Part shown: in pieces, positions 61,801 to 63,847 of the stretch
Layout of the letters: each line of letters begins with the position of its first letter
Numbering within the stretch: position 1 is the stretch's first letter
DNA from: Chloroflexota bacterium
GTDB lineage: Bacteria; Chloroflexota; Anaerolineae; J036; Brachytrichaceae
DNA: 64,000 bases
Assembly (NCBI GenBank): GCA_025354985.1
Contig: JANXLU010000066.1
Location: forward strand, 62,001 to 126,000
Direction: 5' to 3'
Notes under the pieces: model-generated
What the model saw: the letters and a program-made list of their open reading frames with translations, nothing else
Database searches by the model: none
What the model was told of the DNA's origin: nothing
Translations under genes and position numbers: made by a program

Positions 61801-62865
61801 TCAGGTATTCCATCGCCCCTTTTGGATGTCCTTGATTTCGCTCAGGTCCAGACCCATGACCTCGCGCCAAATTTGACGGGCCAAATCCAGCGGATCGGGC
61901 AGGGTGATGAACTGATCAAAGTAATCACAGACACGTTCAACATCGCGGGAGAATATTGTTCCGGCGTGTGGGTTCTTGTAGGGATGCACCGCCTGCGGGA
62001 AGTCGATGATGCGGGCCTCACCCTGCCAATACAGAATGTTGTAAGAGGACAGATCCCCGTGGACGACGTCATTAGCGAGCATTACCTTGATGTTTTCCAG
62101 AATCAGATCAAACAGGCGCTTAGCTTCGCGCCGGTCAAGCGTCACCGAGCCGAGTGGCGGAGCCGCCTGGCCTGGCGAACCAAGATACTCCATCAACACC
62201 ACATTCTCACCGTTTGCAAACGGTTTGGGGACGATGGCCCCGGCCTTATGGAGCCTAGTCATGACCGAAAGCTCATTCGAAAGCCAGCTTGTGTGCAGCA
62301 TCTGCAGACCGACCTTTGTGCGTTTTGCCACGGCGCGTTGCTCGCGTTCCTTGCGCAATTCGGCACCGCCAACATCCCGCATTTGCGTCCCGACCCGATA
62401 TATCGCGTCGTTCTTTAGGTTGCGAAACATGCGCGGGCGATAGACTTTTGCCGCAAGGTGTGCGACTCCGGTGCTGGGGTGCGCGACACAACAATACACG
62501 GTAGCCTCTTTACCGCCCTTGACGACCCGCAGGACATCTGAAATCACGTTGTCCTCGTGAAATGGCATTAAGGCATCGAGTAACCATCCGCGTTCGGCGC
62601 GCGCGGCTTGATAGGTGAATTCAAAGCCGCGATCTTCCGCCTGGCTGCCTGTTCGGGACTCACCTGTCAGTGATTTGAGTGCAACCCAGTCACTTTTCTT
62701 CGTGGCCCGGGCGCGCAGTGTTTTGCTTTTGATGCGTTCATCATGCAATTCAGCCGCATCTTCGTAGTCGTCGATACTTTCGACGACGTTATTTTCTATA
62801 GTTTCTTTGTCAGAGGTGACCTGATCAAGAAGGTCAACATCTTCGAGATTGATAGTGTCAATCAT
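61801..62865 (-). CDS. RIO1-family serine protein kinase
   Basis: About 354 residues. RIO fold hallmarks: VVKGGKEATVYCCVAHPSTG (flexible P-loop equivalent with STGV), VHGDLSSYNILYW (catalytic loop) and IIDFPQAVHPYKNPHA (metal loop DFPQ). WLSNELSVMTRLHKAGAIVPKPFANGENVVLMEYLG is the hinge region. RIO kinases act in ribosome maturation in archaea and eukaryotes; bacterial roles are little known. The acidic N-terminus (LEDVDLLDQVTSDKE) is low-complexity. ATG 62865 is preferred; ATG 62913 or TTG 62946 (inside a terminator T run) are alternatives. An upstream leader region appears to regulate it. Confidence 0.92.
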   Translation of the reverse strand: MIDTINLEDVDLLDQVTSDKETIENNVVESIDDYEDAAELHDERIKSKTLRARATKKSDWVALKSLTGESRTGSQAEDRGFEFTYQAARAERGWLLDALMPFHEDNVISDVLRVVKGGKEATVYCCVAHPSTGVAHLAAKVYRPRMFRNLKNDAIYRVGTQMRDVGGAELRKEREQRAVAKRTKVGLQMLHTSWLSNELSVMTRLHKAGAIVPKPFANGENVVLMEYLGSPGQAAPPLGSVTLDRREAKRLFDLILENIKVMLANDVVHGDLSSYNILYWQGEARIIDFPQAVHPYKNPHAGTIFSRDVERVCDYFDQFITLPDPLDLARQIWREVMGLDLSEIKDIQKGRWNT

Positions 62866-62940
62866 TATGGAACCTGTTTTGGGTGAAGTTTCTTCTGGTG
62901 TGGGCGAATGCATGCATTCGCTCACGTGCTTCCGGCCGAA

Positions 62941-62975
62941 AAACAAAAAAACCGAAGTGCAGTGCGCACATCGGT
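62941..62975 (-). terminator. intrinsic terminator/attenuator ahead of RIO kinase gene
   Basis: Minus strand: ACCGATGTGC pairs with GCACTTCGGT (one T-T mismatch, 5-nt loop), followed by T6-G-T5. It lies between the leader ORF and the kinase start, so it must be bypassed for kinase expression. Confidence 0.85.
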
Positions 62976-62998
62976 TTTGGTTCCAAACAAATCAATCT

Positions 62999-63061
62999 CT
63001 AGCGTGGAAAATGGCCGAGGCACGCGCTGCGCGTAGCGGGAACGACATTATTAACTTTCAT
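62999..63061 (-). CDS. putative 20-aa leader peptide upstream of RIO kinase gene
   Basis: ATG 63061 opens a 20-codon frame (MKVNNVVPATRSACLGHFPR, then TAG). It is preceded by the strongest Shine-Dalgarno in the region, AAAGGAGGTA (63071-63080); an in-frame TTG at 63067 is an alternative start. The stop is 24 nt before the terminator stem. This geometry is that of a ribosome-sensed attenuator peptide. The peptide is not otherwise recognised. Confidence 0.55.
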   Translation of the reverse strand: MKVNNVVPATRSACLGHFPR

Positions 63062-63099
63062 TTGCAACAGTACCTCCTTTAACAAAGATTTAGGTTTGC

Positions 63100-63108
63100 A
63101 TTCTAACA
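63100..63108 (-). promoter_or_regulatory. extended -10 promoter for the RIO leader
   Basis: Minus strand TG-t-TAGAAT is an extended -10 (TAGAAT, plus 63100-63105). The start point would be ~20 nt before the leader Shine-Dalgarno. The -35 is weak. Confidence 0.45.
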
Positions 63109-63142
63109 GAATTTTCGAGCGCGTGACACGTGAAACACTGAG

Positions 63143-63172: not shown

Positions 63173-63190
63173 AAACCGACCGGTCGGTTT
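63173..63190 (+). promoter_or_regulatory. TetR-type operator palindrome
   Basis: AAACCGACCGGTCGGTTT is a perfect 18-bp palindrome covering the expected transcription start of the TetR gene, 12 nt before its GTG start. A bound repressor would block its own transcription. Confidence 0.8.
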
Positions 63191-63202: not shown

Positions 63203-63847
63203 GTGAACTTAGCTGCAAAGATATATCCAAAGGTTGCTTCAAGACGCGAGAGCTTGGATGCCGGTATTGAGCCGATCAATACCCGGGCAAAAATCGTGGA
63301 TGCGGCGCTTGACACATTCGCGCGCAAGGGATATCACGATACCAAGCTGGACGAGATAGCGGACGCATCCGGCACATCCAAGGGCGCGATATATTTCCAC
63401 TTTCCAAACAAGGAAAAGTTGTTCCTGGGTCTGGTTGACGAATTTGCGAACTTGCTTGAGCGTCGCGTGGTCGACGAAATCGACGTTGCTCCGGTGGGCA
63501 TGCAGCGGGTTGAGATCGCCTTGCGCACCTGTTTGAACACGTTCGCAAAATACAGGCGTGCGGCAAAGGTGCTGTTGGTTCAAGCCGTGGGGCTGGGCGC
63601 CGCCTTTGAAGATGCGCGGACTATTGTGAATGATCGGTTTGCCCGCCTTATTGGACGATATCTTCAGGAGGCGGTTGAGCAGGGACAAATCAATCCGATC
63701 AACGTTCCAGTCATTTCGCTGGCTTGGATGGGCGCGATTTATGCCTTGATCATACGCTGGGTCACCACCAATGAGCCGTCGCCAGACGAGATACTTGATG
63801 CATTGGTTCCGGCGTTGCTGCGCAGTGTCGGATACGTGGAGCGATGA
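63203..63847 (+). CDS. TetR-family transcriptional regulator
   Basis: 214-residue repressor. The N-terminal helix-turn-helix is IVDAALDTFARKGYHDTKLDEIADASGTSKGAIYFHFPNKEKLFLGLVDEF. The C-terminal ligand domain is all-helical and unassigned. The start is GTG 63203 with AAGGAG 4 nt upstream. It overlaps the isochorismate synthase start by ATGA, so it likely controls menaquinone or a related pathway as well as itself. Confidence 0.92.
   Translation: MNLAAKIYPKVASRRESLDAGIEPINTRAKIVDAALDTFARKGYHDTKLDEIADASGTSKGAIYFHFPNKEKLFLGLVDEFANLLERRVVDEIDVAPVGMQRVEIALRTCLNTFAKYRRAAKVLLVQAVGLGAAFEDARTIVNDRFARLIGRYLQEAVEQGQINPINVPVISLAWMGAIYALIIRWVTTNEPSPDEILDALVPALLRSVGYVER

Follow-up and report, generated by a model that had tools for sequence, protein, structure and literature searches.

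A candidate ribosome-mediated attenuator leader shared by RIO1-family kinase, RsgA and drug-resistance-type genes in Chloroflexota

The window, the whole 64-kb stretch of DNA that was analysed, comes from a 4.18-Mb assembly of a Chloroflexota bacterium (Anaerolineae; genome G000). On its minus strand, an extended -10 element, a perfect AAAGGAGGT, a 20-codon uORF and an intrinsic terminator follow one another from position 63108 to 62939 and precede a RIO1-family kinase gene. The initial annotation had described this series of elements, and every item of it proved correct. The features are as follows.

63100 to 63129, minus strand: promoter, with a -35-like GTGTCA (63129-63124), an 18-nt spacer and the extended -10 TGTTAGAAT (63108-63100)
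63063 to 63080, minus strand: segment 1, the SD AAAGGAGGT of the uORF (63080-63072) with spacer; predicted anti-antiterminator arm, partner of segment 2
62999 to 63061, minus strand: leader uORF MKVNNVVPATRSACLGHFPR, 20 codons, from ATG 63061 to TAG 62999
63014 to 63031, minus strand: segment 2, the 3′ part of the uORF, CGCAGCGCGTGCCTCGGC; predicted partner of the SD or of terminator arm 3
62963 to 62978, minus strand: segment 3, the 5′ terminator arm, with which segment 2 may pair instead (putative antiterminator)
62939 to 62960, minus strand: segment 4, the 3′ arm of the terminator and the T-run; its helix is conserved and covarying in 50 leaders
62943 to 63081, minus strand: extent of the leader in its match to covariance model R2 (E 8.4e-5, 31.4 bits)
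61801 to 62913, minus strand: RIO1-family protein kinase gene, in a frame open from 62946 to 61801 (Pfam RIO1, E 5e-35)

The terminator AAAACCGATGTGCGCACTGCACTTCGGTTTT (62978-62948), which is followed by TTTGTTTTT, has 12 pairs with one U-U mismatch (-15.2 kcal/mol) and lacks the GCCACGGG-type consensus. In-frame starts of the kinase are GTG 62925, ATG 62913 and ATG 62865, and only 26 nt lie between the T-run and ATG 62913. The initial annotation had named kinase transcription from a start beyond the terminator as a finding that would speak against its reading. A sigma-70-like promoter site was looked for between the window terminator and the kinase and none was seen, so such a start seems improbable. 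On the other side of the leader promoter, a perfect 18-bp palindrome, AAACCGACCGGTCGGTTT, at 63173-63190 separates a TATAAT box from the start of a divergent TetR-family gene (63203-63847); it is likely a TetR operator.

The window kinase belongs to the RIO1 family as judged by profile (E 8.6e-34 for the family profile against the PDB Rio1), and its catalytic blocks appear intact. The catalytic-loop and DFP-type residues are invariant in 15 relatives, and the GKEA-VY, HGDLS--N and DFPQ blocks are invariant or nearly so. Like Rio1 and the PA4780 family it is thus a RIO1-family protein, yet it falls below the cut-offs of both named NCBIfam subfamilies: it scores 153.5 bits with the PA4780-family RIO1-like kinase model (NF041645; curated cut-off 350), and its score with the haloarchaeal Rio1 model is also under the cut-off. 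Eukaryotic Rio1 is a maturation factor of the small ribosomal subunit (PMC3358306). In a literature search, no paper was found that connects bacterial RIO kinases with a leader or with translation stress.

Is the leader retained at other kinase loci? Profile searches of 396 genomes sampled from the class detected the kinase in 143. From these and from named GTDB contigs, 147 distinct kinase loci were gathered, 144 of them with enough upstream sequence. Leaders were detected as an SD followed by an ATG and an ORF of 12-35 codons, and the terminator as a hairpin and T-run within 220 nt. Of the 144 loci, 121 have an SD-led uORF ahead of the kinase (antisense controls, 4; dinucleotide shuffles, 9), and a uORF together with a terminator was found in 90 loci, against none of 144 in either control. 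By these criteria, 23 loci have no SD-uORF, and 31 more have one with no terminator detected. Most of the leader uORFs are 16-30 codons long. Among 118 kinase leaders, 53 have an extended -10 of the form TGnTAnnnT no more than 60 nt upstream of the SD; in a control stretch, the count is 3 of 118. The sole match of the SD-uORF-terminator scan on both strands of the 64-kb window was the window leader itself; outside the kinase upstream windows, the scan gave 6 matches in 836,500 strand-bases, five of them on the kinase strand. Since 121 and 90 of 144 loci stand against at most 9 in the controls, the leader architecture at kinase loci is beyond chance.

Some kinase loci have a more elaborate arrangement. 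At one locus (L008, G005:C69:4193-4328), about 900 nt that include a methyltransferase-like ORF separate the leader from the RIO kinase downstream, an apparent leader-methyltransferase-kinase operon. The RIO kinase leaders of Ktedonobacteria (L046, L049, L052-L057) often have two tandem terminators, and several of them have a second ORF of about 40 codons, which has a GAGGT to itself and overlaps the beginning of the kinase frame. In L004, L006, L007, L012 and L032, the terminator seems to be duplicated: behind the first hairpin comes another terminator-like one, whose stem is likewise GGCCGCGGG or GCCGCAGGG.

Conservation of the leader ORF and of the hairpin in relatives had been proposed as checks. 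The hairpin is present in the 90 loci given above and the ORF, as an SD-led reading frame, in 121; the residues of the ORF are not conserved. A lack of in-frame conservation, the other finding that the initial annotation had named as speaking against its reading, is not what these loci show. Among close pairs, substitutions at codon positions 1, 2 and 3 of the uORFs number 269, 406 and 375, with no third-position (synonymous) excess. No conserved peptide motif was found in the Chloroflexota leader uORFs. Since the residues are free to vary, the uORF appears to be kept as a translated element and not as a peptide. The conserved positions are confined to the SD, the ATG, the terminator arms and segment 2, a motif near the 3′ end of the uORF. 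This motif, GYGCGCCTG, is read in differing frames (as APP, RL or TP) and is complementary both to the SD region (pairing 1:2) and to the 5′ arm of the terminator (pairing 2:3). Segment 2 of the window leader is its counterpart; the predicted duplexes there have energies of -20.8 kcal/mol (1:2) and -15.9 kcal/mol (2:3).

The two pairings were tested by permutation among representatives with dissimilar peptides, 82 for 1:2 and 59 for 2:3. The within-locus 1:2 duplex has -15.2 kcal/mol versus -12.5 ± 0.25 kcal/mol when permuted, and none of 20,000 permutations was as strong. For 2:3, the values are -19.2 versus -16.4 ± 0.37 kcal/mol (z -7.8; again 0 of 20,000), and the control pairing 1:4 gave no within-locus excess. 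In a model-guided alignment of 50 leaders, from which the two-sided pair counts were taken, 12 of 20 pairs have two-sided changes, with 90 doubly changed cells compared with a shuffle mean of 18.7; 90.8% of the cells are paired, compared with 32-57% in slid versions. Thus, by these sequence comparisons, there are three mutually exclusive predicted pairings, 1:2, 2:3 and 3:4, of which 1:2 and 2:3 covary. In most loci, the SD of the uORF itself serves as the predicted anti-antiterminator arm.

From the parts, their conservation and the exclusive pairings, I infer that transcription reads through, that stalling is the signal and that the kinase helps to cope with impaired ribosomes. The leader would be a ribosome-mediated transcription attenuator with an anti-antiterminator, which raises kinase expression when ribosomes stall early in the uORF; I hold this to be highly probable. 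In the absence of a ribosome, the SD (segment 1) would pair with the 3′ part of the uORF (segment 2); the terminator 3:4 could then form unhindered and keep the kinase off. During normal translation of the uORF, ribosomes would cover segment 2, so that the terminator would again form and the kinase would stay off. A ribosome sitting on the SD and start codon, or stalled in the first codons because of a ribosome-targeting antibiotic or because elongation is slow for another reason, would block 1:2 and leave segment 2 free. Segment 2 could then pair with segment 3 as the antiterminator, and RNA polymerase would read through into the kinase gene. Induction by stalled ribosomes is the step suggested by the architecture, and the same high probability is attached to it. 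Given the lack of constraint on the uORF peptide, what the leader senses is probably ribosome slowing or stalling in general and not one amino acid.

Folding agrees with this scheme when the order of synthesis is taken into account. For 86 leaders, the RNA was cut before the 3′ arm of the terminator is made, and the ribosome footprint was masked. A ribosome at the start codon or at codon 4 leaves 2:3 at 0.62 or 0.56 of the arm, and with the ribosome on segment 2 or on the stop codon it drops to 0.08 or 0.14; in the window leader, 2:3 falls from 0.63 to 0.02. Folded without a ribosome, the complete leader takes up 1:2 plus 3:4, both in the window and in three further cases. Once finished, the window leader favours the terminator at equilibrium in every state, and 2:3 reaches at most 0.11 with a ribosome at the start. 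Antitermination must therefore be decided kinetically, while arm 4 is still unmade, as is commonly assumed for attenuators.

Genes other than the kinase were found behind the same leader; what is said here at genome scale comes from searches by model and by pattern. Covariance model R1, which was built from a narrow set of RIO leaders only, missed the window leader but already matched leaders of other genes. It was later replaced by R2, built from 50 leaders with the window leader left out of training. R2 gave three matches at E ≤ 0.1 in the host genome, one of them the window leader (E 8.4e-5). A fourth leader there (L175/L229) was found by pattern search and was not detected by R2 at E ≤ 0.1; its GCGTGCC is complementary to GGCACGC of the terminator arm. 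Besides the window leader, the host genome thus has the following.

G000:C80:22296-22451, minus strand: leader before an MFS transporter gene (L224/L205), R2 E 8.4e-7, uORF MKIEIQQNINFAHDAPPVKMSHL
G000:C81:38733-38849, plus strand: leader before the gene of a 682-aa tandem-GNAT protein (L284/L248), R2 E 1e-5, with a poor SD part
G000:C64, about 5051, plus strand: leader before an ABC exporter gene and then a second transporter-like ORF (L175/L229), uORF MTIVIPKFKLRIACLLVVHL, from the pattern search

Among 199 class genomes, R2 matched 55 (E ≤ 1e-3). The downstream ORF was scanned for 39 non-RIO matches, of which, in my tally, 32 belong to a few classes: RsgA (4), ABC exporters (9), ABC-2/DrrA-type components (6), an ABC-F-like protein (1), GNAT acetyltransferases (10) and MFS transporters (2). 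The other seven are carA, a short-chain dehydrogenase or ORFs without assignment. As a raw tally, this list appears far from a random sample of genes. RsgA is a 30S assembly GTPase, and its gene lies behind the leader in several Anaerolineae genomes (L256, L263, L273, L276, L218 and L220, the last two coming from R1 by sequence inspection). The ABC-F-like protein (L278; two ABC_tran domains and ABC_tran_Xtn) is encoded directly behind its R2 match. Some candidates were set aside: R1 matches at weak E-values (L222, L223, L225-L227) are bare terminators without an SD-uORF and were not counted, and the R2 matches L291 and L288 are poor leaders.

The initial annotation had seen in the kinase leader a resemblance to ribosome-mediated attenuation. 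The exclusive, covarying pairings and the sharing of the leader with drug-resistance-type and RsgA genes largely bear this out, with the refinement that the element would be a general translation-stress attenuator of Chloroflexota and not a RIO-specific device. Since the leader is shared with efflux pumps, acetyltransferases and RsgA, the kinase is placed in an apparent response to blocked protein synthesis.

Could the same elements be read otherwise? The SD, ORF and terminator resemble a complete small gene, and the kinase start lies 26-74 nt beyond the T-run, as expected if the uORF encoded a small protein and ended in a terminator of its own, with the kinase transcribed from an independent promoter. 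I consider this very unlikely: the peptide is unconserved, the uORF RNA covaries with its own SD and with the terminator arm, no promoter-like site was seen past the terminator, and the arrangement is retained in 90 of 144 loci. The variable peptides, with synonymous change not in excess, also count against classical amino-acid attenuation, in which the leader would sense one charged tRNA through regulatory codons. The anatomy of uORF, alternative hairpins and terminator is indeed of the trp type; however, MKVNNVVPATRSACLGHFPR has no run of any one codon, and the targets are kinases, pumps, acetyltransferases and RsgA, with amino-acid genes absent save one carA, so that there is next to no room for this explanation.

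A riboswitch, with a metabolite- or drug-binding aptamer that includes the uORF region, would also account for alternative pairing and a terminator in the 5′ leader of drug-resistance-type genes. However, Rfam gave no match at the gathering score in the window and in 20 loci with related leaders, and only chance-level matches at relaxed thresholds; moreover, conservation limited to the SD, ATG, segment 2 and terminator arms leaves no conserved unpaired core, and a riboswitch is very improbable. Finally, the folding might expose or hide the ribosome-binding site of the kinase instead of switching a terminator. In the MFE structure of the window, CGUGCCUCGGCC from the uORF is paired with GGCCGGAAGCACG immediately 5′ of the kinase start, and the kinase itself lacks a strong SD. 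The conserved and covarying terminator with its T-run makes such translation attenuation a very unlikely substitute for termination, and both levels may act jointly, as reported for vmlR (PMC9226507).

With transcription attenuation by stalled ribosomes as the preferred reading, what would the leader mean for the kinase and for the phylum? The leader common to the kinase and the 30S factor RsgA is a regulatory hint, not proof, of a bacterial ribosome link similar to that of Rio1. A function deduced from regulation, such as coping with impaired ribosomes, is a hypothesis for the kinase. Its apparent regulation by the state of the ribosome, shared with RsgA, ABC-F and drug exporters, makes this function directly testable, as the kinase should be made upon ribosome stalling. 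For a phylum-specific, cis-encoded translation-stress regulon without a regulator protein, in which peptide-independent stall sensing would co-induce pumps, acetyltransferases, ABC-F, RsgA and the RIO kinase, the case is evenly balanced; if it is true, the bacterial RIO kinase would be a ribosome rescue, repair or assembly kinase whose induction follows the poisoning of ribosomes. Ribosome-mediated attenuation is best known from Bacillota, and a recurrent element family in Chloroflexota would extend it beyond that phylum. Chloroflexota are known mostly through metagenomes, and the leader offers a route to their intrinsic resistance and ribosome-protection genes. The kind of mechanism is already known; the element family, which is absent from Rfam, and its RIO and RsgA targets appear to be new.

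As in trp-type attenuators, the position of the ribosome would choose between exclusive hairpins, although the Chloroflexota leader has no regulatory codon run and, with the carA exception, no amino-acid targets. The plan of anti-antiterminator, antiterminator and terminator has been proven by experiment for vmlR (PMC9226507), bmrCD (PMC4191407) and hflXr (PMC6310831), and by its anatomy the Chloroflexota leader is of the same kind. In the vmlR leader of Bacillus subtilis, the uORF likewise lies inside the anti-antiterminator hairpin, and ribosome stalling on it blocks this hairpin, so that the antiterminator forms and intrinsic termination is avoided; pausing elements and elements that sequester the SD of the target are also present (PMC9226507). 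The vmlR target is an ABC-F protein in Bacillota, whereas the present one is a RIO kinase in Chloroflexota. The bmrB/bmrCD leader of B. subtilis has a translated leader ORF, a terminator and alternative stem-loops before a multidrug ABC exporter and is induced by several ribosome inhibitors (PMC4191407). Its ORF, with 53 codons, is longer than those of the present leaders, which stand before many gene types, and the likeness is architectural. The rli80/hflXr leader of Listeria combines a short uORF with the same three-hairpin plan; its peptide carries an RLR stall motif (PMC6310831), in contrast to the Chloroflexota leaders with no conserved peptide motif. The gene under its control, hflXr, encodes a ribosome-acting factor (PMC6310831), and the same is proposed here for the RIO kinase and RsgA.
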